A stretch of DNA of 64,000 nucleotides, taken from assembly GCA_030065915.1 (NCBI GenBank), contig JASJCQ010000020.1, forward strand, positions 62,001-126,000, given 5' to 3'. The DNA comes from Woeseiaceae bacterium (GTDB lineage: Bacteria; Pseudomonadota; Gammaproteobacteria; Steroidobacterales; Woeseiaceae). This document shows positions 3,976 through 51,113 of this stretch, in pieces. The notes under the pieces were generated by a model that was given only the letters and a program-made list of their open reading frames with translations, had not been told where the DNA came from and made no database searches. A program made the position numbers and the translations under genes. The first letter of the stretch is position 1. The number at the start of each line of letters is the position of its first letter.

Positions 3976-3993
3976 TGTCTATTGTAACTTACA
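3976..3993. promoter_or_regulatory. PpsR/CrtJ-type operator TGT-N12-ACA (site 1)
   Basis: TGTCTATTGTAACTTACA read directly in the crtC/crtE divergent intergenic region. Confidence 0.65.
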
Positions 3994-4000
3994 ATTTACA
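3983..4000. promoter_or_regulatory. PpsR/CrtJ-type operator TGT-N12-ACA (site 2, overlapping site 1)
   Basis: TGTAACTTACAATTTACA read directly. Confidence 0.65.
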
Positions 4001-4040
4001 CTGACAATATAAATTGACACATTCTCAATGGAGAGCCGTG

Positions 4041-4913
4041 ATGGACGTTGATTCCCGAATCAACGCGGCGCTTAATAATGCGCTGCATTCCTCGAAAGGT
4101 CCGGCCTGTCCGCCGGGGCTAGCGGATGCCATGGAGTATGCGGTCTTCCCCGGTGGTCATCGAATCCGGCCCAGGCTCTGTTTCGCCGTCGCCATGGCGC
4201 ATGAGGAGCCGGACGCCGCCGTGCTCGACGCGGCCGTCAGCAGCATCGAATTGCTGCATTGCGCCTCGCTCGTTCACGACGACATGCCTTGTTTCGACAA
4301 CGCGGACATGCGCCGCGGCAAACCCGCTGTTCACGTGGAATTCGGTGAGTCGCTGGCGTTGCTTTGTGGCGACGCGCTGATCGTTCATGCGTTCCAGGTC
4401 CTCGCGGGCGTCGCACCGGTCGCGCCGCGTCGCGTGGCGAATCTGCTCGGCGTCGTCAGTCAGGGCGTCGGTGCGCCCGATGGCATCGTGGCCGGCCAGG
4501 CCTGGGAGTGTGAGACTTCTAGAAACCTCCGCGACTACCAGCGCGGCAAGACCGGCGTTCTCTTCGCTGCGGCAACCATGGCCGGTGCTGCCGCCGCCGG
4601 TGCTCCACACGAGGATTGGTTCGCGCTCGGTGAGTCGATGGGAGAGGCCTACCAGGTAGCCGACGATCTGCTCGATCGTTTCGGCACGGCCGAAGTGATC
4701 GGCAAGCCGGTGGGTCGGGACGCACAACTGGATCGTTCCAATGCCGTATCCGAGATGGGTGTTGACGGCGCGTCACAGCGTCTGAGTGACATTATCGACG
4801 AGATGATCGAAACGATCCCGGACTGTCCCGGTCGCAGGGGTCTGAGTGACCTGATCCGGGTTGAAGCGACCCGCTTCACCGAGCTCGCTCTGCGCGCCCG
4901 CCAGGCAGCCTGA
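4041..4913 (+). CDS. crtE: Geranylgeranyl diphosphate synthase
   Basis: Polyprenyl synthase motifs (GGHRIRPRL, LVHDDMPCFDNADMRRG, DDLLDRFG); ATG at 4041 preferred over TTG 4014. Confidence 0.93.
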   Translation: MDVDSRINAALNNALHSSKGPACPPGLADAMEYAVFPGGHRIRPRLCFAVAMAHEEPDAAVLDAAVSSIELLHCASLVHDDMPCFDNADMRRGKPAVHVEFGESLALLCGDALIVHAFQVLAGVAPVAPRRVANLLGVVSQGVGAPDGIVAGQAWECETSRNLRDYQRGKTGVLFAAATMAGAAAAGAPHEDWFALGESMGEAYQVADDLLDRFGTAEVIGKPVGRDAQLDRSNAVSEMGVDGASQRLSDIIDEMIETIPDCPGRRGLSDLIRVEATRFTELALRARQAA

Positions 4914-4940
4914 TTCCAGGCCCGAAGGGCGAGATCTCGC

Positions 4941-6044
4941 GTGGCTCCGGCGCCTTTTTTCAATCTCCGAAACCGGCTGCTGAGCAGTGCATCCTTTCGA
5001 CGGAAGGCAGAAAAACTTCCGTTTGGTCAATGGCTTGCACGTCGGCACGCGGGCAGGTTGTTTCGAATTGCCGGGGGCTTTATCCATACCCAGGTCTTGC
5101 TGTCCTGTGTGCGCCTCAATCTGTTTGAAATCCTGAGGCCGCGGCCGCTGACCACGGCAGAGCTCGCCGCTCGAACACAGATTCCCGAGGACAGGTTGCG
5201 ACATCTCCTGGCCGCTGCGGCTGCGCTGGACCTCCTCAAGCGCCGTCGTCGTGACCGGTTCGGACTGGGCCCGTTGGGTGCCGCAATGAATGAGAACGAA
5301 GCCGTCACCGCCTTTGTCCTGCACCACGATGCGTTCTACCAGGATCTCATCGATCCGGTTGCGCTGTTTGCAGGAACGGCTGAAACACGAATGTCGTCGT
5401 TGTGGTCCTATGCGACCGCAAGAACGACGGACAATCTCGAGCGCGACGACGTTCGCGCATACACGAAGCTGATGAGTGAATCGCAATCGATGGTAGCCGA
5501 GCAGGTGCTCGACGCGTTCTCGTTTGCGGAGAGTAAGAGCCTGATCGACATCGGTGGTGGCAGCGGCGCATTCGCAAAGGCAGTCGCGGCGCGTTGGCCA
5601 GAGCTCGCGATTACCGTCGCCGACCTACCGCCCGTCGCCGATATCGCGCGACAAAGCATGCTTGACGAGGGCCTCGAGCGACGTATCGACGTCATCGGCA
5701 TCGATGCCACGAGCGGAGACATTCCCGGCACCTATGACGTCGTCAGTCTTGTGCGCATTATTCACGACCACGATGACGACCGGGCGTTGCAGATACTGAG
5801 AACTGCACGTGCTGCGCTGTCCGAGGGCGGCCGCCTGTTACTCGCCGAGCCTATGGCGGCTCGCAACCTTGCTGGCGTCCTTAACGATGCGTATTTCCAG
5901 GTCTATCTGCTGGCTATGGGGAGCGGTCGACCCAGGCGGTCCGGAGAACTCAAAAGACTCCTGAAAGAGGCCGGTTTCAGCAGCGTCAAGCGATGCAAGA
6001 CCCGGGTTCCGCTGATCACCAGCGTTCTGGTCGCCAGGCCCTGA
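4941..6044 (+). CDS. crtF: Demethylspheroidene O-methyltransferase
   Basis: O-methyltransferase fold (LIDIGGGSGAFAKAV), position between crtE and bchC; GTG start. Confidence 0.9.
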   Translation: MAPAPFFNLRNRLLSSASFRRKAEKLPFGQWLARRHAGRLFRIAGGFIHTQVLLSCVRLNLFEILRPRPLTTAELAARTQIPEDRLRHLLAAAAALDLLKRRRRDRFGLGPLGAAMNENEAVTAFVLHHDAFYQDLIDPVALFAGTAETRMSSLWSYATARTTDNLERDDVRAYTKLMSESQSMVAEQVLDAFSFAESKSLIDIGGGSGAFAKAVAARWPELAITVADLPPVADIARQSMLDEGLERRIDVIGIDATSGDIPGTYDVVSLVRIIHDHDDDRALQILRTARAALSEGGRLLLAEPMAARNLAGVLNDAYFQVYLLAMGSGRPRRSGELKRLLKEAGFSSVKRCKTRVPLITSVLVARP

Positions 6045-6053
6045 CGTCCAGGT

Positions 6054-6071
6054 TGTAAACAAATATTGACA
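6054..6071. promoter_or_regulatory. PpsR/CrtJ-type operator TGT-N12-ACA upstream of bchC
   Basis: TGTAAACAAATATTGACA in an AT-rich 56-bp gap between crtF and bchC. Confidence 0.6.
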
Positions 6072-6100
6072 ATAATAGTAGTCAGAGTAAACTGACACCG

Positions 6101-7078
6101 ATGGTTAGCGAACCTGAAATAAAGGGGGAAAGCGGCCACGTTTCAGCGCAAGCGGTCGTATTCGAGAAACCGCAGGCGCTGGCGGTCCGTCAGCTTGATC
6201 TCAAGCCACCAGAGAGCGGTCAGGTCATCGTCGATGTCGAATGGACCGGCATCAGTACAGGCACCGAAAAGCTGCTGTGGAGCGGGCGAATGCCTGCGTT
6301 TCCCGGTATGGGCTATCCGTTGGTTCCCGGCTACGAAACGGTCGGGCGAGTCGCGGCTGCGGGCCCTGAAGTATCCGTTCGCGTCGGTGACCGCGTCTTC
6401 GTATCGGGCGCTTCCTGCTATGGCGACATTCGCGGGTTGTTTGGCGGCGCGTCATCGCGTTTGGTGGTCGACGAGCAAAAGCTGATTCCCGTCGGTGAGG
6501 ATCTCGAAGAGGAGGCCATACTCCTGGCGCTCGCGGCGACCGCTCACCACGCGCTAATGACCGGCGACGCATCTCGTCTGCCCGAACTCATTGTTGGTCA
6601 CGGCGTTCTCGGCCGATTGTTGGCGAGACTGACGGCGGCGCTTGGTGGTGTCTCTCCTGTCGTCTGGGAGGCCGATGAACGTCGGATGACCGGCTCGATG
6701 GACTACGACGTCGTTCTCCCTGGCGATGACGAACGCAGAGACTATGGTCGAATCATCGATGCCAGTGGAGACTCCGGCATTCTGGATACCGTCACGCAGC
6801 ATCTCGCTCCGTCCGGCGAGATTGTGCTGGCGGGTTTCTATGCTCAACCACTGTCGTTCAACTTCGCACCCGCTTTTATGCGCGAAGCCACCATTCGCAT
6901 AGCCGCGGAATGGCAACCAACTGACCTGAGAAGTGTGCGGTCGCTGATAGCAAGCGGTGCGCTGTCGCTCGATGGTCTGATCACACATCGATCGAGCGCT
7001 CAGGACGCACACACGGCCTATCCCACTGCGTTCACTGATCCCGATTGTCTGAAGATGGTCCTGGACTGGAGGTCCTGA
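6101..7078 (+). CDS. bchC: 2-desacetyl-2-hydroxyethyl bacteriochlorophyllide a dehydrogenase
   Basis: Medium-chain dehydrogenase with WTGISTGTEKLLWSGRMPAFPGMGYPLVPGYETVG, typical of BchC. Confidence 0.93.
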   Translation: MVSEPEIKGESGHVSAQAVVFEKPQALAVRQLDLKPPESGQVIVDVEWTGISTGTEKLLWSGRMPAFPGMGYPLVPGYETVGRVAAAGPEVSVRVGDRVFVSGASCYGDIRGLFGGASSRLVVDEQKLIPVGEDLEEEAILLALAATAHHALMTGDASRLPELIVGHGVLGRLLARLTAALGGVSPVVWEADERRMTGSMDYDVVLPGDDERRDYGRIIDASGDSGILDTVTQHLAPSGEIVLAGFYAQPLSFNFAPAFMREATIRIAAEWQPTDLRSVRSLIASGALSLDGLITHRSSAQDAHTAYPTAFTDPDCLKMVLDWRS

Positions 7079-8100
7079 TGCTCGACCGAAAACAAGCCAA
7101 AGAACACAAGATCGATCCGCAGATTCAGATGCGAGACCGGCTGAGAGAAGAAGCATCGATAGATCCGGACCCGGTGTCGACGAGCGAGCCGGCGAAAGAG
7201 ACGCAGGTCATCGCGATTTACGGCAAGGGCGGCATAGGTAAGAGTTTCACGCTGTCGAACCTGTCTTACATGATGGCCCAGCAGGGCAAAAAGGTGCTGC
7301 TCATCGGCTGCGATCCGAAGAGCGACACGACGTCGTTGCTGTTTGGCGGCAAGAGTTGTCCGACCATTATCGAGACCTCGTCGAAGAAGAAAGCCTCCGG
7401 CGAAGAAGTCGAGATTGGTGATGTCTGCTTCAAGCGCGACGGTGTCTTCGCGATGGAACTCGGCGGCCCCGAGGTCGGAAGAGGCTGCGGCGGCCGCGGC
7501 ATAATCCACGGGTTTGAGCTGCTCGAGAAACTCGGTTTCCACGACTGGGATTTCGACTACGTCCTGCTCGATTTTCTCGGTGACGTCGTCTGCGGCGGAT
7601 TCGGTCTGCCGATTGCTCGCGACATGTGCCAGAAGGTCATCGTCGTGGGTTCGAACGACCTGCAGTCGCTGTACGTGGCAAACAATGTCTGCTCAGCCGT
7701 CCAGTACTTCAGAAAGCTGGGCGGCAACGTCGGTGTGGCCGGCATGGTGATCAACAAGGACGACGGAACGGGTGAGGCGGCAAAGTTCGCCGAGTCCGTT
7801 GGCATCCCTGTCCTTTCCGCGATTCCGGCCGACGACGACATCCGCAAGAAGAGCGCGAACTACGAAATTATCGGGCGTCCGGAAACGCAGTGGGCCGGGC
7901 TGTTCGAGCAGCTGGCTGAAGGCGTTGCCGAGGCGCCGCCGCTACTGCCTGAGCCACTCGATCAGGATGGTTTGCTCGGCTTGTTTGACGGCAACGACGA
8001 GAGCGCCAGCGGACAGCTTACACCGGCGACGGCGGAGGACATGTGCGGCAAGAACTTCACGGCGAAACCTTCACTGGAAGTGGTTTACGACGAGGCTTAG
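7078..8100 (+). CDS. bchX: Chlorophyllide a reductase iron protein subunit X
   Basis: P-loop YGKGGIGKSFTLSN, CDPKSDTTSLLFGG; ATGA overlap with bchC. Confidence 0.95.
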   Translation: MLDRKQAKEHKIDPQIQMRDRLREEASIDPDPVSTSEPAKETQVIAIYGKGGIGKSFTLSNLSYMMAQQGKKVLLIGCDPKSDTTSLLFGGKSCPTIIETSSKKKASGEEVEIGDVCFKRDGVFAMELGGPEVGRGCGGRGIIHGFELLEKLGFHDWDFDYVLLDFLGDVVCGGFGLPIARDMCQKVIVVGSNDLQSLYVANNVCSAVQYFRKLGGNVGVAGMVINKDDGTGEAAKFAESVGIPVLSAIPADDDIRKKSANYEIIGRPETQWAGLFEQLAEGVAEAPPLLPEPLDQDGLLGLFDGNDESASGQLTPATAEDMCGKNFTAKPSLEVVYDEA

Positions 8101-8149
8101 GCGAAGTCAGTCAAAACGGTCGGGCAGGAAAATTACAACTAAAGAGTGC

Positions 8150-9655
8150 ATGACTGAAACAAAGCAAAAACTGACGGGTAAGGAAAGGGTCGAATTCGAT
8201 TCGATCGTCGACGCGCCTGACGCAGGTTCTGCGCCGGCCGCGGGTGGCTGCCATGCCAATGATGAATTGAAGAAGGCAGCGTCCGAAGCCGGCAAGTCCG
8301 GTGTGCTCGAGCAGTACGCGAAAGACTACTCGGTCGGGCCGCACGACCAGCCGCAGAGCATGTGCCCGGCATTCGGCAGCTTAAGGGTTGGCTTGAGAAT
8401 GCGTCGCACGGCGACGATCCTGTCCGGATCAGCCTGCTGCGTCTATGGCCTGACGTTTACGTCGCATTTCTACGGCGCCCGGCGAACCGTCGGCTATGTC
8501 CCGTTCAACTCTGAAACGCTCGTGACCGGCAAACTGTACGAGGATATCCGCGATGCCGTACACGAGATCGCCGACCCTGAACACTACGATGCGGTTGTCG
8601 TAACCAACCTGTGTGTACCGACGGCCAGTGGCGTGCCGCTGCAGATGTTGCCGAAAGAAATCGACGGCGTGCGGATCATCGGCATCGACGTGCCCGGATT
8701 CGGTGTTCCGACGCATGCAGAGGCGAAAGACATTCTTGCCGGTGCCATGCTGAAGTATGCGCGGGAAGAAGCAGAGGCGGGGCCCGTCAAGGCGCCAGCC
8801 GATCGCAAACAACTACCCACGGTTACGCTGCTGGGCGAGATGTTCCCGGCCGACCCGGTCAGCATCGGCCAGCTTCTTGACCCGCTGGGTCTGGCGACCG
8901 GGCCCGTCGTACCCACGCGCGAGTGGCGCGAGTTGTACACGGCGCTGGAGAGCCAGGTCATCGCGGCGATCCATCCGTTCTACACGGCCTCGATACGAGA
9001 GTTCGAAGCTGCCGGTCGTACCATTGTAGGTTCAGCTCCGGTCGGCCAGCATGGCACGGCGGCGTGGCTTCGATCCATTGGCGAAGCCTACGACGTCGGG
9101 AAGGCGCTTATCGACAAAGCTATCAACCAGTTTGTTCCGGCGATCGCCGGTGCTACTGCTGCATCGCCCATCAAGGGCCGCATCACGATGTCCGGCTACG
9201 AGGGCTCAGAGCTCCTGGTCGCTCGCATGCTGGTCGAGAGCGGCGCCGACCTCAGATACGTCGGTACGGCGTGTCCAAGGACACGCTGGTCCGATGCCGA
9301 CAGGGAGTGGCTGGAAGAGAAAGGCGTCATCGTCACGTTCCGGGCTTCGCTCGAGGATGACCTGGCGGCGATGCAAGAATTCGAACCCGATCTTGCGATC
9401 GGGACGACACCGGTGGTGCAGAAGGCAAAGGAAGCGGCGATCCCGGCGCTGTACTTCACCAACCTGATTTCGGCCCGACCGCTAATGGGCATTCCGGGCC
9501 CGGGCTCGCTCGCCCAGGTCGTCAATGCGGCGATGGGCCAGAAGTCGCGTTTCGACACGATGCGAGAGTTCTTCGAGGACGTGGGTCACGATCAGACGGC
9601 CGGCGTCTGGGAAAAGGCGCCTGCGAGTGCAGCGACTGGAGGTGCCGCGTGTTAG
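8150..9655 (+). CDS. bchY: Chlorophyllide a reductase subunit Y
   Basis: [15 protein letters not shown]...[28 protein letters not shown] typical BchY; the track ORF from 7772 is an N-terminal over-extension. Confidence 0.94.
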
Positions 9656-11097
9656 TGCTCGATCACGATCGTGCCGGCGGTTACTGGGGCAGCGTGTACG
9701 TCTTTGCCGCCGTCAAAGGCCTGCAGGTCATCATCGATGGTCCCGTGGGTTGCGAGAACCTGCCCGTCACCTCTGTTCTGCACTACACGGACGGCTTGCC
9801 GCCGCATGAGCTGCCTATCGTCGTCACCGGACTGTCAGAAGACGAGCTCGGTCAGCACGGGACCGAGGGCGCCATGAAGCGGGCTCATGGCACGCTGGAT
9901 CCCAGGGTGCCCAGCGTCGTGGTCACCGGGTCGATCGCCGAGATGATCGGTGGTGGCGTTACGCCCGAAGGAACGAAGATCAAGCGCTTCCTGCCGAGGA
10001 CGATCGACGAAGACCAGTGGCAGAGCGCTGACCGTGCGATGTACTGGCTGTGGACCGAGTTCGGTCCGAAGAAGGGCAAGGTACCGCCCGTCAAACCGCG
10101 CAAGAACGGCGAGAAGCCGCGCGTGAATATCATCGGCCCGAGCTACGGCATGTTTAACATGCCGTCGGACCTTGCAGAAGTACGGCGGTTGGTAGAAGGC
10201 ATCGGCGCCGAGATCAACATGGTCTTCCCGCTGGGAAGCGACCTGAAAGACATCTCGAAGCTCGCGAACGCGGACGTCAATGTCTGCATGTATCGCGAAT
10301 TCGGACGCGCGCTTTGCGAAGGGCTGGAACGCCCGTACCTGCAGGCGCCCATCGGCCTGCACAGCACAACCAAGTTCCTGCGAGAACTCGGCGGACTACT
10401 GGACCTCGATCCCGAGCCGTTTATCGAGCAGGAAAAACACACGACGATCAAACCGCTGTGGGACTTGTGGCGTTCGGTCACGCAGGACTTTTTCGGTACG
10501 GCAAGTATCGCCATCGTCGCCAACGAGACCTATGCGCGCGGCCTTCGAAACTTTCTGGAGAACGACCTCGGCATGCCCTGCGCCGTAACTTTCGAGCGCC
10601 GGGCTGGTGTCAAGCCTGACAACGCCGCGGTTCGGGATGCACTTAATGAGCACAACCCCCTTGTCGTATTCGGCAGCTACAACGAGCGGATGTACCTGGC
10701 GGAATCCGGTGCTCACGGCATTTACATCCCCGCTTCGTTTCCAGGCTCGATCATACGCCGACATACGGGTACGCCGTTCATGGGTTATGGCGGCGCAACT
10801 TACGTCGTGCAGGAAGTCTGCAATGCATTGTTCGACGCGTTGTTCAACATCCTGCCGCTGGGTACGCAGCTCGACCAGGCGGAGGCGACGCCGACCAGCA
10901 GCCACCAGGAGATTCGCTGGACCGACGAAGCGCAGGCCGCATTAGAGGCGCTTGTGGCAACCAAGCCGGTTCTGATCAGAATTTCGGCGACCAAGAGTCT
11001 GAGAGACGCCGCGGAGGCGCAGGCCCGACAGCAGGGCGTGGACGAGGTCACGCTCGATTGCTTCAAGGCGATCGCGGTACCGAGGGCAGCAGCATAA
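9649..11097 (+). CDS. bchZ: Chlorophyllide a reductase subunit Z
   Basis: [42 protein letters not shown] typical BchZ; start overlaps bchY stop. Confidence 0.95.
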
Positions 11098-11152
11098 GAG
11101 GTTTTAGCAACGGGTTCGTTTATCCGTCCCCGTCGCAGATTGGAGAAGAAGT

Positions 11153-11380
11153 ATGGAAAAGCACAGCACACTCACTCGAGGGCTGAGAAAGGAAGAAGTC
11201 TGGTCTTGCCGGTTCATCTGGCTGGTCTGCTTCGCGGTATTCCTTCCGGTCGCACTCGTGGCGCGTTTGTCCGGCTGGCGATGGCGCCCATGGTCTGCAC
11301 CGTCGAAGGGCTACCGGTCGGTAATCCGTGAGGCCAAGACAATTTCGACGACGGTTACCGGCACTGTCTTTTCCATATAA
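11153..11380 (+). CDS. pufQ: PufQ, cytochrome subunit / pigment assembly cofactor of puf operon
   Basis: 75-aa single-TM protein between bchZ and pufB; VIREAKTISTTVTGTVFSI resembles the PufQ C-terminus. Confidence 0.72.
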   Translation: MEKHSTLTRGLRKEEVWSCRFIWLVCFAVFLPVALVARLSGWRWRPWSAPSKGYRSVIREAKTISTTVTGTVFSI

Positions 11381-11389
11381 CAGCGTTCT

Positions 11390-11416
11390 GCGGCGTCGAC
11401 TATTAGTCGGCGCTGC
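11390..11416 (+). other. RNA hairpin in pufQ-pufB leader
   Basis: GCGGCGTCGACT-ATT-AGTCGGCGCTGC folds as a 12-bp stem with two wobble pairs. Confidence 0.6.
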
Positions 11417-11426
11417 AAAACCCCCG

Positions 11427-11443
11427 CTGCGAGGTATTCGCAG
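11427..11443 (+). other. Second RNA hairpin in pufQ-pufB leader
   Basis: CTGCGA-GGTAT-TCGCAG perfect 6-bp stem. Confidence 0.45.
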
Positions 11444-11483
11444 TAACCACAACCATGTCGACTTGTGTTGAGGAGTAAAAACT

Positions 11484-11630
11484 ATGTCTGACGAAAACAG
11501 ATCTGCTTCAGGTCTAACTTCAAGGGAGGCCAAAGAGTTCCATAAGTACTTTATGCAGGGAACGCTAGGCTTTGTTGCTGTAACCATCGTTGCACACATC
11601 CTGGTCTGGATGTGGCGTCCATGGTTCTAA
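11484..11630 (+). CDS. pufB: Light-harvesting complex 1 beta polypeptide
   Basis: 48 aa: MSDENRSASGLTSREAKEFHKYFMQGTLGFVAVTIVAHILVWMWRPWF*; conserved AHxLVWxWRPW; SD-like aggag upstream; not in ORF track because of length. Confidence 0.95.
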   Translation: MSDENRSASGLTSREAKEFHKYFMQGTLGFVAVTIVAHILVWMWRPWF

Positions 11631-14930: not shown

Positions 14931-16091
14931 ATGCTGGATCCGAACACAAGACGATACGATCTCGACTGGCTACGCATCATTGCGTTCGGCCTTCTGATCT
15001 TCTATCACGTTGGCATGTTCTACGTGACCTGGGGCTGGCACGTTAAGAGCGTCTACGCGTCACCGGCAGTTGAGCCATTGATGCGTATTGTTAACCCCTG
15101 GCGCCTGGCACTGCTGTTCTTCATCTCCGGGGTCGCGATTCGATTCGCGACCGACAAAGCAAACTCGCTAGGGCGGTTCGCCTGGTCACGCGTCAAGAGG
15201 ATTGGCGTGCCGTTGCTCTTCGGCATCTACGTCTGGGTCATGCCGCAGGCCTATTACGAGTTCCTCCAGAGCGGCGAATGGTCGGGTTCAGTAATTGCGT
15301 TCTATCCCGGCTACGTTTCGACGGAACAGGCGTTTTCGACCATCACGCCAACCTGGAATCATCTTTGGTATCTCGCTTACGTTCTGGTCTATATCCTGCT
15401 TGCTATGGCATTGCTGCCTTGGTTGAGACGCTTTGCGGAATCCGGAATATGGCGCTACCTGACCGCAAGGCCACTGGCTGTTGTCTTCCTGTTTGTCGTC
15501 CCGTTTGTCATTGTCGAGACTTGGCTGACACCGATATACCCAACGACGCACAACCTCGTTCAAGACTGGGCAAATCATGCGCATCGGTTCCTCGCATTCC
15601 TGCTCGGGTTCTTCGCGGCTAAGGACGTTCGGTTCTGGCAGTCCATTGACAAAGTGTGGAAGTTCATGCCGCTGCTGGCGGTTTCTGCCTGGCTCATGCT
15701 CCAGGACGGGCGGGACATAAGCGCATGGGCTCGTGAGTTCCTGTCGGACTGGCAGCTGAGACTTCTGTTCAGTTACATTGCGGTCATCTACGCATGGTCG
15801 TGCATCCTGCTGTTGCTCGGTTTCGGTCAGCGGTTCCTGAATCGAGAGAGCCCGCTGCTACGCTACCTGACGGGTGCGATCTTCTGCTACTACGTCCTGC
15901 ACCAGACAATTACCGTTGTCGCCGGCTATTACCTGACTGAATATCGGCTTGGTGCCGTCATTGAGTCGTTTCTCGTGACTGCCATTACCGTCGCCGGTTG
16001 TGTCATCGGCTACGAGCTGATTCGCCGCTTACCCTATGTCGGCATACTGTTCGGCGTACACAAGGTATCGGGCTATCGTCCCAGTCGTTGA
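14931..16091 (+). CDS. Acyltransferase family 3 membrane protein (OpgC/MdoC-like)
   Basis: RYDLDWLRIIAFGLLIFYHVGMF N-terminus and multiple TM segments. Confidence 0.8.
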   Translation: MLDPNTRRYDLDWLRIIAFGLLIFYHVGMFYVTWGWHVKSVYASPAVEPLMRIVNPWRLALLFFISGVAIRFATDKANSLGRFAWSRVKRIGVPLLFGIYVWVMPQAYYEFLQSGEWSGSVIAFYPGYVSTEQAFSTITPTWNHLWYLAYVLVYILLAMALLPWLRRFAESGIWRYLTARPLAVVFLFVVPFVIVETWLTPIYPTTHNLVQDWANHAHRFLAFLLGFFAAKDVRFWQSIDKVWKFMPLLAVSAWLMLQDGRDISAWAREFLSDWQLRLLFSYIAVIYAWSCILLLLGFGQRFLNRESPLLRYLTGAIFCYYVLHQTITVVAGYYLTEYRLGAVIESFLVTAITVAGCVIGYELIRRLPYVGILFGVHKVSGYRPSR

Positions 16092-16139: not shown

Positions 16140-17345
16140 TCAGCAGTCCTCGGTCTTCTCTTTCTCTTCAGGCCGAGGGTTCAGGCCATAGGGTCTAACG
16201 ACTCGCCACACATGGTCGGGAACCATATGCTTCATGCGGCGCGGCTGCTGCCGCCGGAGATGCAGTACTGTTTCGATCGCTTTCATCTCGACACGAGCGC
16301 GTGCAAACTCGAGCCCGCGTGGCCCGATTCTCGGCATTAGCCAACCCATCAGCGGCCGCAGCCAATCCGGCATCGTGCGAAGCGGCAATCCGCCGGCAGC
16401 CCGTTCGGTATTCTTCAGGAATCCCTTCACGGAGCCCACTCGCTTTCCCGCGCTGCCGGGTTCTGAAGCCGCGAGTTCATCGCCAAGCAATTCGACAAGC
16501 TCGCGGCCGCGCTCGTTACGCACAATCAGCCATTGGTCGCCTTCACCACCCATGTAGCCCACCGTCAGATCCGCGAGCGAGTTCGTATAGTCGACACACG
16601 TACGGCAGGTCAGTGGAAAGAAGTCGCTCGGCAATTTCGAGATTGGCAACTTCAGGAAAGGAATCTCCCTGGTTTCGCCGTCGTCGAAACGCAACTCGAC
16701 CCGGTAATCGGCTCGAAACTCGAGGTAGTTGATCTGCTCCGGGCGCCTCGACAAGAGCCTGAGAAACTGATGGAAGTTCTCAGTGCTTGTGTTATCGGAG
16801 CAGGGCGTTCCGATGACATAGATCTTCTCGACACCCAGCTCCTGCTCCAACGCTCGCAGAGCATAGACCTGGCAGGGAATACCGATGACGGCAAGACGCC
16901 GATACCCGGACGCTATTGCAGGCTCGAGCAGCGACAGCAGCGGCGCGTAGCCCATGCGCATGCCCCGGCAGCCTGCCATGTCTGCCGGGTCCGTGACGAG
17001 TACGGGAACGGGTCGCCAGCGATCGTGCTCATCTGGCCGAACGGTCAGCACCGCATCAACGTCCCCGGTCTCCAGCAGTCTTTCACCGATTCGCGTCGTG
17101 ATGCCGGTCCACTGTGCGTTTTTCTTCGGGCTCCGGAGTCGGGCTCGAAGCAGCTCAAAGTAGACGCCGAAGAAGCGCTCATCGCCCTGGTTCGGCGCGC
17201 GCTGTCGACCATGTACGGCTTTCTCCAGCTGCGGGTAGTCCGGTTTAATGAACTGGCAGGCGCGCGCGCACCGGGATGGCTCCGCCGTGCGGGAGACACC
17301 GCAGTCCGTGCACAGGTCCCGATGCGGTGCAGCAGGCAACGTCAT
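16140..17345 (-). CDS. bciB: BciB/HCAR-family (F420-hydrogenase beta-like) reductase, probable 8-vinyl (proto)chlorophyllide reductase
   Basis: N-terminal CTDCGVSRTAEPSRCARAC, QWTGITTRIGERLLETGDVDAVL, GIPCQVYALRALE, TCRTCVDYTNSLADLTVGYMGG match the BciB/7-hydroxymethyl-chlorophyll reductase pattern. Confidence 0.75.
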   Translation of the reverse strand: MTLPAAPHRDLCTDCGVSRTAEPSRCARACQFIKPDYPQLEKAVHGRQRAPNQGDERFFGVYFELLRARLRSPKKNAQWTGITTRIGERLLETGDVDAVLTVRPDEHDRWRPVPVLVTDPADMAGCRGMRMGYAPLLSLLEPAIASGYRRLAVIGIPCQVYALRALEQELGVEKIYVIGTPCSDNTSTENFHQFLRLLSRRPEQINYLEFRADYRVELRFDDGETREIPFLKLPISKLPSDFFPLTCRTCVDYTNSLADLTVGYMGGEGDQWLIVRNERGRELVELLGDELAASEPGSAGKRVGSVKGFLKNTERAAGGLPLRTMPDWLRPLMGWLMPRIGPRGLEFARARVEMKAIETVLHLRRQQPRRMKHMVPDHVWRVVRPYGLNPRPEEKEKTEDC

Positions 17346-18247
17346 GCAGGTGATTGTTCCGTGACGCCGGCAAGGAAGGCACGGTAGGAGTATGAGAATC
17401 CGTCAGCGTCCTCGAAATGCGGCAGGGCGCCGCTCTCGAACGGCTGCAATTGCCAGTTGCCCCGGTCATGCGTCCAATCGGCGCCGCTGAAGTCCCGGAA
17501 GTCTCCGCGGGTTCCGTGGGGCACCCATATCGGCAGGCGAATCGATTCGTAGACGCGACGAATGTCCTTGCTGAAGAGCTTGCCGGACAGGAACGCGAGC
17601 GGTGCATACATAGCGCCCGACTGATGCGTCGTCAGGTCGTCATAGTGGGCAAGCGCTTCGTCATAGCTGTCCGTTCCCCAGGTGCGCTTCAGGAAGTAAC
17701 GGATGACGCCGGGTTTCACCAGCAAGCCGAACAGACCCTGGTTGAGACCGGGAATGCGCAGGAACGAGGACAGAAGAGCCATCTCGCGGGTTTCACCCTC
17801 GTCACCAACCAGCTGCGACGAACTCCGGTTCAGCCCGGTCGGAGTGACCAGCGCCAGCGATCGGAAACGTTCCGGATGATTCCTCGCGGCACGAGCGAGA
17901 AACTCTGAGGACAGGGACAATGCCAAGCTATCAATACCATGCGATCCGTGTGCCCGGGCAATGACGTCCAGCATGTCCTCGATAGCAGCGACGTAGAGTG
18001 AGACGGTGTACTCGCGATCTGACCGGTCCGAGTGGCCGAAGCCCGGAAGATCCGGGACGTAGACGGTGTGCGATTGTCGCATTGCGTCGAAGATCGGCTT
18101 GACCTCGTAAGCCGATCCCGCGGCATTGATGCTGTGTAGGAGCAGCATTGGCGGACCATTGCCGCCCACGTAGTAGCTCAGCTGGCCGGATTGGCCATGG
18201 GTCGTTAGCAGCTCTGCATCCAGTGCAGGAGGTAATGGCTCGGACAA
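17342..18247 (-). CDS. Alpha/beta hydrolase (TTG start proposed; upstream track extension overlaps next gene)
   Basis: GPPMLLLHSINAAGSAYEV, VPDLPGFGHSDR; 4-bp overlap with bciB-like gene. Confidence 0.72.
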   Translation of the reverse strand: MSEPLPPALDAELLTTHGQSGQLSYYVGGNGPPMLLLHSINAAGSAYEVKPIFDAMRQSHTVYVPDLPGFGHSDRSDREYTVSLYVAAIEDMLDVIARAHGSHGIDSLALSLSSEFLARAARNHPERFRSLALVTPTGLNRSSSQLVGDEGETREMALLSSFLRIPGLNQGLFGLLVKPGVIRYFLKRTWGTDSYDEALAHYDDLTTHQSGAMYAPLAFLSGKLFSKDIRRVYESIRLPIWVPHGTRGDFRDFSGADWTHDRGNWQLQPFESGALPHFEDADGFSYSYRAFLAGVTEQSPA

Positions 18248-18302
18248 GAGGTCTTCCCTGGTTTGTTGGCTAGCAGGATACCGTATCTCCAGTGCGCATG
18301 AA

Positions 18303-19364
18303 TCACATATCGGAGGGTCCCACCGCGAGCGGCCGCTCGATAATCCGTGGAAGGTGTACGCTCGCCGAGTGCAGCGCGTTTCCGACGACGCAGATATCCT
18401 GCTTCGTGAGCTGTGAGAACCGGCCGAAAAGTCCGGCGTTCTCAAGTCTGGCGAACGTCGCACGCCCTGGATCCATGACAAACATCGCCATGTGCACACC
18501 GTGACGGTGCAGGATGTCCTTCAACAAGGCTCGCCAGTCTGCCGCTGAGTCTTCAGTCGCTACCACGTCATGCAGGCGAACGTACCGGAAATTCCTCGGG
18601 TCGAACCGACGCTTGGCGGGCGGGAACACGTCGATCATATTGCCGTAGATGCGAGACCAGAACCCGCCGGGCACGGCCACGTTCAGTCGCACGATCTCAG
18701 CCCTTGCGCCTGCCACCAATCTTCCGCCTCGGATCACCGCGTAAAACGATCCCGTACCCTGCGACAACGGCTTCAATCCGCAGTCAGCATGCTCTGTCTG
18801 CAGGGCTACGCTGACCCGCCGCGCGTCATCTACGATCTCGACACTGTCGTCTCGTTTCGTCCACTGGCGGTAGACCAGCATTGATCTGAGTTCACCCAGA
18901 CGTTCGGCCCCCATCGATTCAAGAAGCCGCATTGACCGTTCATTGCTCTTGTCGATACAGCCAAAGGTGATATGTGCCTGCCCCGCAGTGTGCTGCCGGA
19001 GCCAGTCGAGTGCACCTCGAACAAGGATTCGGCCCGCACCGGAAGACTGCCGGTCGGGCGCGACGGTCAACAGGCCGCGATATGTGCCGCCGACCTCGAT
19101 ATCGTCAACACTGAGCCTCTGCGGGCAGAACATATAGGTGCCAATCAACTGCCCGTGCTTGTGCAGCTCCAGGTATCGTGCGCTGTAAAGGCGCGAGGAA
19201 ATATGCTCGCAGTCCAGTCGGCGATAACGCAGGTCGGCGGTGCCAAACTCGGTTTCAGCGAGTTGCGTCACGAACCCCTCGCTCGCGCTGCCCCGGCAAA
19301 ACAGCTCGTGGCCTTCGTCGTCCGTATAGATCAACATGCCTACGGCAAGTCCCGATGGCGCCAT
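18303..19364 (-). CDS. GNAT-family N-acetyltransferase-like protein (start 19364 or 19337)
   Basis: GLLTVAPDRQSSGAGRILVRGALDWLRQ...NERSMRLLESMGAE resembles the GNAT acetyl-CoA binding region. Confidence 0.65.
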   Translation of the reverse strand: MAPSGLAVGMLIYTDDEGHELFCRGSASEGFVTQLAETEFGTADLRYRRLDCEHISSRLYSARYLELHKHGQLIGTYMFCPQRLSVDDIEVGGTYRGLLTVAPDRQSSGAGRILVRGALDWLRQHTAGQAHITFGCIDKSNERSMRLLESMGAERLGELRSMLVYRQWTKRDDSVEIVDDARRVSVALQTEHADCGLKPLSQGTGSFYAVIRGGRLVAGARAEIVRLNVAVPGGFWSRIYGNMIDVFPPAKRRFDPRNFRYVRLHDVVATEDSAADWRALLKDILHRHGVHMAMFVMDPGRATFARLENAGLFGRFSQLTKQDICVVGNALHSASVHLPRIIERPLAVGPSDM

Positions 19365-20467
19365 TCGACGTCGGCGACGGAGGCACTGGCGAAGCTGTGC
19401 TCACGAGACATCGCCTTTGCGATGATTCGCCAGGAGTTGACGGTCATCAGCAGGAACGGCCACGGATCGCTGCGTTGCCAGGTGATATCCCTCGACGATC
19501 GCATGACGTTGGCGATGCTTCGGAACCTTTCGAGTGAAAAAGCTGAAGCAAGCAGGCGCGTGAAGCAGGAATAGGACTCCTTTAGCCGCTGTTCCGGGAG
19601 CGGTTTCATGTCCAGTCTCGATCCATCGCCGACGATGGCCGCCAGCAGCGTCTCAGGGGTCAGAAAGTGAATACCGCTGGTCGCACGGGGGTTGCATTCA
19701 ATCGGCAGACTTCGCCCGTCGTCTTCGACGATGAAATCGAAAGAGATTAAGCCCGTGTGATTGATCTCACCGACGAACCGCTTTGCCCAGTCGACGACTG
19801 CGGCGCTGTCCGGGGCCGATTCAAACGCTATCGACACGCTGCCGTCGATCAGGGTAGGCCGATAAACGGCCCAGGCGGCCAGTTGACCGTCGCGTGCTAC
19901 ACAGAAAATACTCTGGTGTTCTCCATGCAGTTGCTCCTGCAGCACGGTCTGCTCATCAGCTTGTACGTTGACCCCGGCTGCATGGACCCTGATGCCGCGA
20001 CCCGAGCATGAAAATCGTGGCTTGCTCACGAAGGAAGTCGACCGGGTGAAGTCCGGTGACTCATTGGCAAGGGCAGTCCTAGGCACGGGCATGTGGAACG
20101 ATTCAGCCAGCCTGATGAAACGCGCCTTGTCGTGCAGTTCGAGCGTCTTTGACTGGCCCATCGAGAACACAGGAAGCCCGCGATCACGCAATGCCGATAC
20201 GTAGACGCTTTCCTCTGATACCGGAACGACCAGGTCGACGGCCTCGTCGTCACAAATTCCGGCGAGCTGTTCACAGTAGTTGCCTGGATCCGGATGCGGA
20301 GAGTCGACGACACGGCAACGGGTCACAGACTTCGACATACGGAGCAAGTGCATGGCCCAGGGATCGGCTACGATCACTCGCCAACCAGCGGCTGAAAACG
20401 CGCGCGAAATGTCCAATGCTACGGGCAGTCGGCCAAGTGTCAGCAATACGGTTTTATTTATCGACAC
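19340..20467 (-). CDS. ATP-grasp domain protein
   Basis: N-terminal Rossmann-like VLLTLGRLPVALDISRAFSAAGW; FVSKPRFSCSGRGIRV; LISFDFIVEDDGRSLPIECNPRATSGIHFL. Confidence 0.8.
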   Translation of the reverse strand: MSINKTVLLTLGRLPVALDISRAFSAAGWRVIVADPWAMHLLRMSKSVTRCRVVDSPHPDPGNYCEQLAGICDDEAVDLVVPVSEESVYVSALRDRGLPVFSMGQSKTLELHDKARFIRLAESFHMPVPRTALANESPDFTRSTSFVSKPRFSCSGRGIRVHAAGVNVQADEQTVLQEQLHGEHQSIFCVARDGQLAAWAVYRPTLIDGSVSIAFESAPDSAAVVDWAKRFVGEINHTGLISFDFIVEDDGRSLPIECNPRATSGIHFLTPETLLAAIVGDGSRLDMKPLPEQRLKESYSCFTRLLASAFSLERFRSIANVMRSSRDITWQRSDPWPFLLMTVNSWRIIAKAMSREHSFASASVADVEWRHRDLP

Positions 20468-20544: not shown

Positions 20545-21912
20545 ATGAGCGACCTGTTTCGTCCGCCCGCACCCCGCCCATTGACGCCCATCAGGTCACT
20601 GATTCGTGTGCTGCGGCAGGGTGATGGAGACCTGCTCAGCCTGGTCCCGATCGATGCCTATACCAAGCCCTGCACGTGGTTGGGATACTCGCGGCGCTCG
20701 ATACTGCTGGTCAACGACCTCAAACTCGTGCGCGAGGTCCTGACTGACCCCCTCGAGATTTTTCCGAAGAATGACCTGATGGCCGGTGCCCTGGAGCCGC
20801 TCGTCGGTGATTCGGTTTTCGTATCGAGCGGCGCCACATGGCGCAGGCAGCGTGCGATGATTGACCCGGCCTTCTCGCACATGCGCATCAACCGCGCGTT
20901 CCCTTCGATGCGGGACGCTGTCGTCGACTACGCTACGTTACTCGACCGGCGTGCCGGAACCGGCGAGTACTTCTCGCTCGATCTCGCGATGAGTGAGTTG
21001 ACCGCCGATGTCATATGTCGAACGGTGTTCTCGACCAAACTCGGCTCGGAGACGGCGCGAGACGTTTTCGAGGCCTTTGCCGAGTTCGAAGACAGTGTCG
21101 CAAACGTCAATCTCCGCGAATTGATATTCGGTAAGCCATGGTCGGACGTGAGGCAGCCGGAGAACGTATTGGCGGCCTGCGAGCGAATCCGGCGGCATAT
21201 CGGTGACCTGATCGATCCGAGGCTGGTCGGGGAGTCGGAGCAGCCCGATGACATCGTCTCCGAGCTGATTGCGGCGCGGGACCCGGAAGGCGGCAAAGGC
21301 TTCAGCCGAAAGGAACTGATCGATCAGCTCGGCGTGTTCTTCCTCGCTGGGCACGAGACAACGGCGAGTGCGCTGACCTGGGTGTTCTACATACTCTCGC
21401 AGCACCCGGAGACGACGGTGAGAATGCGCGACGAAATTGATCGCGTTGTTGGCGCCGGGCCGGTCGAGTTCAAGCACGTCAAGCAGCTGGCATTCATCCG
21501 AAACGTCTTCAGGGAGACGCTTCGCCTTTACCCGCCGATTACCTTTATTCCGAGGGTCGCCGCCGAAGCCACGCAGATCGGAGATTTCAAGGTTAAGAAA
21601 GGCGCGATGATCATGATTTCCCCATGGACGTCTCACCGCAACCGGGAGCTGTGGCAGAACGCTGACTGTTTCGACCCTGATCGGGACGAAGAGGGGGTGT
21701 TATTGTCGTTTGGCCTGGGCCCGCGCGTTTGCATCGGCGCCGCTTTCTCGACTATCGAGTCTGGCCTGATACTCGCGGAACTGGTTCGTCGATACGACTT
21801 TGAGGTCAAGTCTCCGGAGAACGTGAGACCAGTGTCCCGATTGACGACGCGCCCGGCCCGCGAGATCCAGTGCCGCGTGTCGCTGCGTGAACCGCTGGCA
21901 AAGACCGCGTGA
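20545..21912 (+). CDS. Cytochrome P450
   Basis: I-helix FFLAGHETTASAL, K-helix ETLR, heme motif FGLGPRVCIGAAFS. Confidence 0.95.
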   Translation: MSDLFRPPAPRPLTPIRSLIRVLRQGDGDLLSLVPIDAYTKPCTWLGYSRRSILLVNDLKLVREVLTDPLEIFPKNDLMAGALEPLVGDSVFVSSGATWRRQRAMIDPAFSHMRINRAFPSMRDAVVDYATLLDRRAGTGEYFSLDLAMSELTADVICRTVFSTKLGSETARDVFEAFAEFEDSVANVNLRELIFGKPWSDVRQPENVLAACERIRRHIGDLIDPRLVGESEQPDDIVSELIAARDPEGGKGFSRKELIDQLGVFFLAGHETTASALTWVFYILSQHPETTVRMRDEIDRVVGAGPVEFKHVKQLAFIRNVFRETLRLYPPITFIPRVAAEATQIGDFKVKKGAMIMISPWTSHRNRELWQNADCFDPDRDEEGVLLSFGLGPRVCIGAAFSTIESGLILAELVRRYDFEVKSPENVRPVSRLTTRPAREIQCRVSLREPLAKTA

Positions 21913-23369
21913 AGAAACACGTCATTGTCGTCGGCGCAGGAATGGGCGGCCTCGTTTCAGCGCTCGACCTGGCGGCGACCGGATTCCGAGTGACGCTGCT
22001 GGAGCGACAGTCGGAGCCCGGCGGCAAGATGCACGAGGTCACCGTCGGCGGTGACGGAGTCGATTCGGGCCCTACTGTGTTCACCATGCGATGGGTGTTC
22101 GACAGCCTCTTTAAGGACGCGGGCCTGTCGCTGGATGACTGTGTAGAACTCGTTGAAGCGGAGGACCTGGCGCGCCACGCGTGGCTCGACGGCAGCCGGC
22201 TGGACCTGTACGCGGACCTCGAGCGTTCCGTCGCGTCCGTCGCTGAATTTGCCGGCAGTGCAGAGGCGGAGGCCTATAGACAGTTTGCGTGCCAATCCGC
22301 GTCCGTCTTCGAGACATTGGACGACACGTTTATGCGTTGCGAGAAGCCGGGGCCATTCGGGCTTACGCTGTCAGTCGGATTGACGCGCCTGAACAGGCTT
22401 CTGCAAACCAAACCGTTCTCGAGTCTCTGGGCGGAGCTCGGGCGGGTCTTTCGCGACCCGAGACTCCGGCAACTGTTTGCTCGCTACGCCACGTATTGCG
22501 GATCTTCCCCATTCGAATCGCCCGCGACGCTGATGCTGATTGCACACGCCGAGCGAGCCGGTGTTTGGATGGTGCGTGGCGGGATGCAGCGTTTTGCCGA
22601 GGCGCTCCTGAAAGCCGCGCAGGATCGCGGGGTGGAGACCCGACTTGACACGGCTGTTGACGAAATAGTCAGCGAGCGAAGCAAGGTGGTCGGCGTTCGA
22701 CTGCAGAACGGCGAGACGCTGAGTTCCGATTTCGTTGTGTTCAACGGAGACGTCAACGCGCTGAGTCACGGGCTGCTGGGTGCCAGCGTTGAGAAAGCGG
22801 TACCGGACAGACGCAAGGAGTCGCGATCGCTGTCTGCGTTAACGTGGAGTATGAAAGCGACTCCGCGAGGCTTCCCGCTGCGCTATCACACGGTGTTCTT
22901 CGGTGCTGACTACCGGGCCGAGTTCGACGCCATATTCAAGCGACAGACTGTTTGCGACGAGCCGACACTCTATGTCTGTGCCCAGGACAGGATCGAGGGC
23001 AGGGAGCCGGAAGGGGCAGAAAAGCTCTTCGTGCTGATGAATGCGCCACCCAGGGCCCTGTCGGAATCGGAGATCGATGACTTCGAAGCACGTGCGTTCA
23101 GTTTGCTGGGTCGTCACGGGCTGGGGCTCGATATCGCATCTGTCGAGCGCAGGATTCCGTCGGATTTCGATGCACGCTTTCCCGGCAGCCAGGGCGCGAT
23201 ATACGGCTGGCCCACGCATGGCGCGTTCGGCACGTTCAAGCGCTCAGGATCTCGCTCATCGATCAAGGGGCTGTATTTCGCGGGAGGCACCGTCCATCCG
23301 GGCCCGGGCATTCCGATGGCGGCACTGTCGGGCCGCATTGCGGCTGCCAGCATCCGCAAGGACGCCTGA
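21909..23369 (+). CDS. crtD: CrtD-like methoxyneurosporene/hydroxyneurosporene desaturase
   Basis: FAD dinucleotide-binding GAGMGGLVSALDLAATGFRVTLLERQSEPGGKM; C-terminal YFAGGTVHPGPGIPMAALSGR; overlaps P450 stop. Confidence 0.88.
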   Translation: MKKHVIVVGAGMGGLVSALDLAATGFRVTLLERQSEPGGKMHEVTVGGDGVDSGPTVFTMRWVFDSLFKDAGLSLDDCVELVEAEDLARHAWLDGSRLDLYADLERSVASVAEFAGSAEAEAYRQFACQSASVFETLDDTFMRCEKPGPFGLTLSVGLTRLNRLLQTKPFSSLWAELGRVFRDPRLRQLFARYATYCGSSPFESPATLMLIAHAERAGVWMVRGGMQRFAEALLKAAQDRGVETRLDTAVDEIVSERSKVVGVRLQNGETLSSDFVVFNGDVNALSHGLLGASVEKAVPDRRKESRSLSALTWSMKATPRGFPLRYHTVFFGADYRAEFDAIFKRQTVCDEPTLYVCAQDRIEGREPEGAEKLFVLMNAPPRALSESEIDDFEARAFSLLGRHGLGLDIASVERRIPSDFDARFPGSQGAIYGWPTHGAFGTFKRSGSRSSIKGLYFAGGTVHPGPGIPMAALSGRIAAASIRKDA

Positions 23370-23370
23370 G

Positions 23371-24852
23371 TCACGCCGGGTCCGGCACGACCTCGTCCAG
23401 CACCTTGGCCGACGAGATAACGCCGGGCAATCCGGCGCCCGGATGGGTGCCGGCACCAACGATGTAGAGATCGTCGACCTCTTCGCTGCGGTTATGCGGC
23501 CTGAACCAGGCGGTCTGTGTCAGCACGGGCTCAAGGCCGAATGCTGCGCCCTTGACAGACGACAGCCTTTCCTTGAAATCAATCGGTGTCAGAAGCCGCG
23601 AGGTGACGACGTGTTTCTCGAGGTCGGGCAGAACACTGTCGGACAACGTCTTCGCGATCCGTTGACGGTACTGTTCCGCCTGCTGCTCCCAGTCAATATC
23701 ACTGTCCAGGTGCGGGACTGGCGACAGTACATAGAATGCGTCGCAGCCAGGCGGTGCCAGCGATGAATCCGTTGCCGTCGGGCGGTGCAGGTAGAGGCTG
23801 TAGTCGTCCGCGAGGACCTTCTTCGAGAAGATGTCTTTCAACAGCTCCTTGTAGCGATCGCCCAGCATGATCATGTGATGGGGTACATCCGGGTACTGGC
23901 GGTCTGTGCCGAAGTACCAGACAAACAGGCTCATCGAATAGCGCGCCCGGTCGAGCTTTGCATCCGTCCAGCGCTTGCGGCGATGGTCCGATAACAGGTG
24001 CTTGTACGTTGCCGCTGAGTCGGCATTGGATACGACGAGATCGGAACGGACGATTTCTCCGTTCTCCAGTTCTACGCCCCTGGCCGCGCCGTTCTCGACG
24101 ATGATCCGCCGCACGGATGCGTTGTATCGCATCTCGCCACCCTGCGATTCGATAAGGCCGACGAGGCCCTCGATAATTGCGCCGGTGCCGCCCATCGCGA
24201 AGTGGATGCCGTGCTTGCGCTCAAGTTGTGCGATGAGCGCGTAGGCTGCCGTGGCCGTAAACGGATTGCCGCCGATCAGCAACGGGTGAAAGCTGAAGAT
24301 CCGCCTGAGTTTGGGGTGCTTGATGTAACGCGCGACCAGCCCATGTACGGAGCGATAGAACTGCGCGTCGATGAGTTTCGGCAGGATCTCGAGCATTTTG
24401 CCGAATGAGTCAAAGGAGACGTGCAACAGCTTGTCAAAGCCTATGTCGTACAATTTGGCGCTGGCCTTGAGGAATTGTTCGTAGCCAGCGACGTCGTCGG
24501 GATTGAAACGTGCAATCTCGCGTTTCATCGCCTCCGGGTCGCCGCTGTAATCGAAATGGCTGCCGTCGTCGAAGCGAATCGTGTAGTAGGGCGACAATTC
24601 TCGGAGATCGATGTCGTCGGACATCTGCTTGCCGCACAGGGCCCATAGCTCCTCAAGCAGGAAGGGTGCGGTGATGATCGTCGGGCCCGCGTCGAAAACG
24701 AATCCGTCCTGTCGATAAACGAAGGCGCGTCCTCCTGGACCATCGAGCTTTTCGACGACGGTGACGTCATAACCCCTGGCGCTCAGCCTGACCGCTGCGG
24801 CCAGTCCGCCGAACCCGCTACCGATGACGATAGCCTTTGCCCGATTACCCAT
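23371..24852 (-). CDS. crtI: Phytoene desaturase
   Basis: VIGSGFGGLAAAVRLSARGYDVTVVEKLDGPGGRAFVYRQDGFVFDAGPT; C-terminal VGAGTHPGAGLPGVISSAKV. Confidence 0.95.
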   Translation of the reverse strand: MGNRAKAIVIGSGFGGLAAAVRLSARGYDVTVVEKLDGPGGRAFVYRQDGFVFDAGPTIITAPFLLEELWALCGKQMSDDIDLRELSPYYTIRFDDGSHFDYSGDPEAMKREIARFNPDDVAGYEQFLKASAKLYDIGFDKLLHVSFDSFGKMLEILPKLIDAQFYRSVHGLVARYIKHPKLRRIFSFHPLLIGGNPFTATAAYALIAQLERKHGIHFAMGGTGAIIEGLVGLIESQGGEMRYNASVRRIIVENGAARGVELENGEIVRSDLVVSNADSAATYKHLLSDHRRKRWTDAKLDRARYSMSLFVWYFGTDRQYPDVPHHMIMLGDRYKELLKDIFSKKVLADDYSLYLHRPTATDSSLAPPGCDAFYVLSPVPHLDSDIDWEQQAEQYRQRIAKTLSDSVLPDLEKHVVTSRLLTPIDFKERLSSVKGAAFGLEPVLTQTAWFRPHNRSEEVDDLYIVGAGTHPGAGLPGVISSAKVLDEVVPDPA

Positions 24853-24937: not shown

Positions 24938-25666
24938 TTGGTTGTCCATCTATTCGAGTCGCTCATCGTGGCCCACATTATTACAGGCACCGTCGGCCTG
25001 TTATGTGTGTGGATTCCGATAGTGGGTCGAAAGGGCAGCCGCCTGCACAAACTGTGGGGCAAGGTCTTCGCCTACAGCATGCTGACGACCGGAACGATCG
25101 CGATCGGCATCAGCCTGTGCACACTGCACTCGCCACTCGAGACACATCTTTTTTCCGACGACGAACCACTGATTAGGGGCATCTTCGGATGGATGATGCT
25201 GTATCTCGCCACAATGACCATCATGCTGGCCTGGTATGGGTTGCTCTGTATTCGTAATCGCCAGTCGCATGAACGCAACCGGAATCCGGTCAATCTGACG
25301 CTGCAGTTTCTGACCTTCCTGACGGCAGCGAATTGCGCGTACCAGGGGATCCTGCTGAAGAACGGCCTCATGATCGGGATTTCAACGATCGGTCTTGCCG
25401 CGGCGGTTCTGAATACACACTTCATCTTCCGCCAGTCACCGCCGATGAATGAGTGGTTGATTCAACACTCACGGGGTCTCGTGGGCGCCGCGATTTCGGT
25501 CTACACGGCCTTCCTCGCGTTTGGCGCCGTGAACCTGTTGCCGGAATATGCGTTAAGCCCTGTGCTTTGGTCGATGCCGACGATTCTGGGGGTCACGTAC
25601 CTGCTGTATCACCAGGCGAAGATAACGATGCAGCGTCGCCGGCTGGAGGCGCGCCAGGGTACCTGA
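24938..25666 (+). CDS. Multi-TM membrane protein (possibly DUF2306-like)
   Basis: Several hydrophobic segments; GSRLHKLWGKVFAYSML near N-terminus. Confidence 0.55.
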   Translation: MVVHLFESLIVAHIITGTVGLLCVWIPIVGRKGSRLHKLWGKVFAYSMLTTGTIAIGISLCTLHSPLETHLFSDDEPLIRGIFGWMMLYLATMTIMLAWYGLLCIRNRQSHERNRNPVNLTLQFLTFLTAANCAYQGILLKNGLMIGISTIGLAAAVLNTHFIFRQSPPMNEWLIQHSRGLVGAAISVYTAFLAFGAVNLLPEYALSPVLWSMPTILGVTYLLYHQAKITMQRRRLEARQGT

Positions 25667-48769: not shown

Positions 48770-48772
48770 GGC

Positions 48773-51113
<2,341 letters not shown>

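Follow-up and report, generated by a model that had tools for sequence, protein, structure and literature searches.

A phototroph-associated and previously unnoticed module of three genes, encoding an ATP-grasp ligase, a cytochrome P450 and a DUF2306-like membrane protein, was found in the genome of this Woeseiaceae bacterium, and both the module and its linkage to carotenoid genes are well supported. Together with a GNAT acyltransferase that accompanies it in this lineage, the module probably tailors a spirilloxanthin-type carotenoid, with a nearby BciB-type enzyme acting separately. The ATP-grasp/GNAT/hydrolase/BciB block originally reported at this position consists of separate units which lie side by side inside the photosynthesis gene cluster.

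The window analysed is the whole 64-kb stretch, taken from a genome of 3.96 Mb. Its left part is filled by the photosynthesis gene cluster, made up of bchO end, crtB, crtC, crtE, a crtF-like methyltransferase gene, bchCXYZ, pufLMC, acyltransferase_3, four minus-strand genes, the P450 gene, crtD and crtI. The pufC and bch models scored above cut-off, and the BchO-like C-terminal part at 21-554 gave 151.7 bits over 170 aa (TIGR03056 cut-off 172.55). The principal features are:

16140-17345, minus strand: candidate BciB-type ferredoxin-dependent 8-vinyl reductase, 401 aa (Pfam FrhB_FdhB_N/C above cut-off)
17342-18247, minus strand: alpha/beta hydrolase, about 301 aa, TTG start (Abhydrolase_1)
18303-19364, minus strand: tandem-GNAT acyltransferase, 353 aa, start possibly at 19337 (Acetyltransf_1)
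19340-20467, minus strand: ATP-grasp ligase of the PRK06849/NF005315 superfamily, 375 aa (Pfam ATP-grasp_3)
20545-21912, plus strand: cytochrome P450, 455 aa, with ExxR, I-helix and haem-Cys motifs intact (Pfam p450)
21909-23369, plus strand: crtD, 1-hydroxycarotenoid 3,4-desaturase, which accompanies the module (NF045637, 638.5 bits, above cut-off)
23371-24852, minus strand: crtI, phytoene desaturase, a neighbour (TIGR02734, 629 bits, above cut-off)
24938-25666, plus strand: DUF2306-like membrane protein, 242 aa, the third module member (by co-occurrence; weak DUF2306 match)

The four minus-strand ORFs and the domains assigned to them in the first-pass annotation were confirmed with Pfam. The block is indeed flanked by pufLMC and crtD/crtI as had been described, but the acyltransferase_3 gene (14931-16091) and the P450 gene had been overlooked. 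The former, of MdoC/OPG type, lies between pufC and the BciB-type gene and had no counterpart in those related clusters that were examined. The BciB-type and hydrolase genes overlap by 4 nt (17342-17345). The most likely hydrolase start, judged from the letters, is the TTG at 18247 behind a ribosome-binding-like AGGGAAG stretch rather than position 18499, placing the gene about 55 nt from the GNAT stop. With its start at 19364 or 19337, the GNAT gene overlaps or abuts the ATP-grasp stop, and the P450 gene is divergent from the ATP-grasp gene at a distance of 77 bp. Farther along the window (46485-51113), pyruvate-dehydrogenase-like E1alpha/E1beta/E2 genes adjoin a gene for a ScyB-like tryptophan/amino-acid dehydrogenase, which scored below the model cut-off.

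The sample of the order comprised 396 genomes, 55 of them with pufM, and the counts of P450 and membrane protein within the order cover these 55 genomes. The window-type P450 is present in 35 of them, the crt-type ATP-grasp and the membrane protein (24938-25666 type) occur in the identical 35, and all three genes are missing from the remaining 20 (Fisher p 2e-15 for the identical sets, a statistic that ignores relatedness). The genomes are drafts and some absences may be assembly gaps. Further ATP-grasp matches in three genomes (G214, G293, and G377) were weak or in other contexts. When the module is mapped as a unit onto a tree of PufM from 38 genomes, at least 6 changes are needed (6–7 on bootstrapping), with strongly supported branches by themselves forcing just 2. 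A class-wide sample of 369 genomes gave an ATP-grasp match in 16, the source genome included, and in the 10 of these loci which were examined the P450 and membrane protein stood beside the ATP-grasp solely in G513 and G651. These two genomes, from outside the order, contain pufM, which is missing from the other 13 genomes with a match. The link to phototrophy suggested in the first-pass annotation is supported.

The usual gene order is crtI-crtD-membrane protein-P450-ATP-grasp-crtB, and in relatives the P450 and ATP-grasp genes are close or slightly overlapping (e.g., 8132-8135 in locus L096). Such adjacency, combined with strict co-occurrence, argues for a shared pathway. Where the photosynthesis genes are split (G043, G056, G146, and G148), the module is found with crtD, and mostly with crtI as well, on a different contig from pufM. 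In genomes that lack the module (e.g., G037), crtC, crtD, and crtF are retained, which makes the module an addition to the synthesis of spirilloxanthin. A literature search for an ATP-grasp or P450 in photosynthesis clusters returned no description of either.

Compared with solved structures, the P450 profile matched LUT5/CYP97A3 best (235.6 bits), about 40 bits ahead of an unnamed P450 (194.2 bits), followed by CYP3A4 (176 bits) and CYP97C1 (162 bits). The similarity to CYP97 is not diagnostic, as CYP3A4 attains the score given above and the NCBIfam pentalenene oxygenase model reaches 168 bits. The P450 gene also lies within a carotenoid gene set. However, the plant CYP97 enzymes hydroxylate the cyclic ends of alpha- and beta-carotene, whereas the pathway here is that of acyclic spirilloxanthin-type carotenoids, so both the position attacked and the product must differ. 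Oxygenation of a purple-bacterial carotenoid would be shared with the known ketolases CrtA and CruO, although CrtA is stated to be no P450 in a review from 2023 on the carotenoid enzymes of purple bacteria; the review mentions P450 in general terms only, and its section list contains no P450 or ATP-grasp tailoring enzyme (PMC10604819).

The ATP-grasp protein scored 234 bits with NF005315 against a cut-off of 406, which places it in a related superfamily and not in that equivalog. Its catalytic positions are kept (conserved Lys114/Lys149 and an ECNPR motif), and its AlphaFold2 model (pLDDT 87) gave Foldseek matches of the ATP-grasp fold. The top match and closest fold was PylC, the amide ligase of the pyrrolysine pathway (TM about 0.58–0.61); PylC differs in its low identity (17%) and in working on free amino acids. 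The crt-type ATP-grasps form one clade (support 100/99) apart from those of other operons. Second copies in G056 (L092:9983-11110) and G043 (L093:10007-11125) fall inside this clade and lie away from crt genes. The nearest plasmid relatives, at about 31% identity, are encoded in an operon with KAS III, NAD(P)-oxidoreductase, MBL and F390-synthetase genes. This operon recurs in plasmid loci L135-L139 of Bacillota and Proteobacteria. It encodes KAS III, an NAD(P)-dependent oxidoreductase, an MBL-fold hydrolase, an F390-synthetase-like protein and the ATP-grasp, in many cases together with a GNAT or a Rieske protein, and a literature search for it found nothing. For the membrane protein, a weak DUF2306 match was obtained in 6 of 13 members, and the alignment contains 53 invariant columns.

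The GNAT was found in seven of the 396 genomes of the order, every time beside the ATP-grasp; three other matches were weak and partial. It is 66% identical to its homologue in a Woeseiaceae metagenome-assembled genome (L017). Its AlphaFold2 model (pLDDT 85) has two GNAT domains in one chain, with N-myristoyltransferases as the best Foldseek matches over the full length (TM about 0.6). Homology to the GNATs of the plasmid operons was considered and rejected, as it was undetectable. Beyond the closest relative, ATP-grasp identity is mostly 35–46%, and both the ATP-grasp and the GNAT change more rapidly than the P450 does, which suggests that their substrates may vary. The earlier reading of this pair as an amide-forming ligase and an acyltransferase is a reasonable one.

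The window contains 18 TGT-N12-ACA sites (PpsR/CrtJ type) against 8.5 expected, several of them upstream of crtE, bchC, and puf (3976-11596). The module's own intergenic region held no perfect site, and of 28 corresponding regions in relatives just 2 had one; regulation of the module by PpsR was rejected on these grounds.

Taken together, the favoured scheme would begin with the building of an acyclic carotenoid by CrtC, CrtD, and CrtF, after which the P450 would oxygenate this spirilloxanthin-type product. The ATP-grasp would then activate a carboxylate with ATP and couple it to an amine or some other nucleophile to yield a polar conjugate of the carotenoid, which the GNAT would acylate in the Woeseiaceae and in a second, related family. 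Anchoring of the P450, or the supply of its electrons, may be the role of the membrane protein. Separately, the BciB-type enzyme would reduce the 8-vinyl group in bacteriochlorophyll synthesis, and the hydrolase is given no step in the scheme. The substrate, the order of the steps and the bond formed are inferred, while the gene content, the strict co-occurrence, the linkage to crt genes, the intact catalytic motifs and the fold were observed directly. Counting against the scheme are the non-diagnostic similarity to CYP97, the lack of a perfect PpsR-type site in the module's intergenic region, the faster divergence of ATP-grasp and GNAT, and the published pigment data on cultured Halieaceae discussed below.

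It is possible, if unlikely, that the module instead acts on a non-carotenoid photosynthetic lipid such as the bacteriochlorophyll tail, a quinone, a hopanoid or a membrane lipid. This would agree with its confinement to phototrophs in the samples searched and with G651, a phototrophic genome in which neither crt nor bch genes adjoin the module; however, in split clusters the module goes with crtD/crtI and not with bch/puf, and the best solved relative of the P450 is a carotenoid hydroxylase. Quite improbable is a route in which the ATP-grasp and GNAT would make a soluble amide or peptide in free form, as a sunscreen or osmolyte co-inherited with phototrophy, with the P450 being separate. The comparison that speaks for it is with MysC, which couples glycine to 4-deoxygadusol (PMC10510106): the MysC-like ligase of a Nostoc mycosporine cluster is 27% identical to the ATP-grasp, with near full-length homology and a catalytic motif in common, and the occurrence of ATP-grasp relatives in other biosynthetic operons on plasmids points the same way. 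Against this, the ATP-grasp strictly co-occurs with and adjoins the P450, with spacing near zero or slightly overlapping in some genomes, and no 4-deoxygadusol synthase/methyltransferase pair was seen in the loci examined. MysC is set among 4-deoxygadusol genes, whereas the setting here is one of P450 and crt genes, and in the tree MysC sits on a long branch that is not part of the crt-type clade. Identity of the ATP-grasp with MysC was rejected on account of this placement and of its neighbours.

The first-pass annotation had proposed that all four minus-strand genes form a single pathway which makes or modifies a tetrapyrrole, a reading in line with their shared strand and tight spacing in the window and with an identical four-gene block in the congeneric G031 (locus L012). 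That genome is the only other one sampled to carry the complete block, and elsewhere its parts occur independently: ATP-grasp and GNAT without hydrolase or BciB (G005 and G022), hydrolase and BciB adjoining crtD without ATP-grasp, GNAT or P450 (G006), hydrolase alone in the slot (G134 and G021), and, in another family, an ATP-grasp/GNAT pair that is without BciB and has the hydrolase encoded on the other strand (G040). Across the 55 phototrophs neither BciB (Fisher p 1.0) nor the hydrolase (p 0.76) was associated with the module. Relatives thus divide the four genes three ways, into ATP-grasp (with or without GNAT), BciB and hydrolase. The search for co-conservation beside bch/puf genes, which had been put forward as a check, found the block scattered, an outcome the annotation had itself named as refuting its proposal, and the true partners of the ATP-grasp to be the P450 and membrane protein of the carotenoid gene set, so that neither the one-unit reading, rejected by this distribution, nor the action of ATP-grasp and GNAT on a tetrapyrrole was sustained. 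A single tetrapyrrole pathway is accordingly highly improbable.

For the BciB-type protein, the best solved relative was the plant 7-hydroxymethyl chlorophyll a reductase (HCAR) 5dqr (E 1.1e-74, 255 bits), with the next chain at 72 bits and NCBIfam F420 models far below cut-off. By sequence it is nearer to the BciB/HCAR family than to the beta subunits of archaeal F420 hydrogenases, and its assignment to that family, given its two FrhB_FdhB domains, was correct. Homologues 68–76% identical occur in 11 of the 55 phototrophs, in eight of which the gene lies outside the photosynthesis cluster. BciB and plant HCAR share its domain layout and close sequence similarity; what differs is the setting, since in three members of the genus the gene adjoins the hydrolase within the photosynthesis cluster, and in the others it lies elsewhere in the genome. 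That the protein should be a pigment-salvage enzyme or a reductase of the 7-hydroxymethyl-chlorophyll-a type, and not an 8-vinyl reductase, is very unlikely: HCAR is its sole close solved relative, but the organism's pathway makes BChl a and not Chl b (bchCXYZ are present), so that the HCAR substrate is not expected, and it is BciB, acting with ferredoxin, that has been reported in some purple bacteria (PMC7242693). The gene is an ordinary 8-vinyl reductase candidate for bacteriochlorophyll synthesis and a neighbour of the module by chance.

Homologues of the hydrolase were found in 17 of the 55 phototrophs, where they are associated with BciB (Fisher p 0.002, uncorrected). Outside this genus a photosynthesis context was mostly absent from the hydrolase neighbours, and its linkage to BciB is restricted to the genus. 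BchO was rejected as an identity for the hydrolase (18.7 bits against the TIGR03056 cut-off of 172.55).

For cultured Halieaceae, to which the sampled family f10 presumably corresponds, the published reports list no pigments other than BChl a and spirilloxanthin, mainly from UV/visible spectra (PMC3679898, PMC2654016). In so far as the strains carry the module, these reports count against a modified carotenoid, but UV/visible spectra would miss end-group changes that spare the chromophore. We tentatively suggest that the products may form a new class of photosynthetic carotenoid conjugates, widespread among marine phototrophic gammaproteobacteria, in which an acyclic carotenoid oxidized by the P450 would be joined by the ATP-grasp to an amine (e.g., an amino acid) and, in some lineages, N-acylated by the tandem GNAT. 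For these aerobic phototrophs spirilloxanthin is reported as the only or principal carotenoid, mainly on the basis of absorption spectra. The module, conserved and tied to the carotenoid genes in 35 of the 55 phototrophs sampled, suggests that a modified carotenoid hidden from such spectra is made by many of them. A mass shift of the main carotenoid is predicted between relatives with and without the module. If this proves true, the carotenoid chemistry of purple bacteria would gain a possible P450 and an ATP-dependent ligation step.
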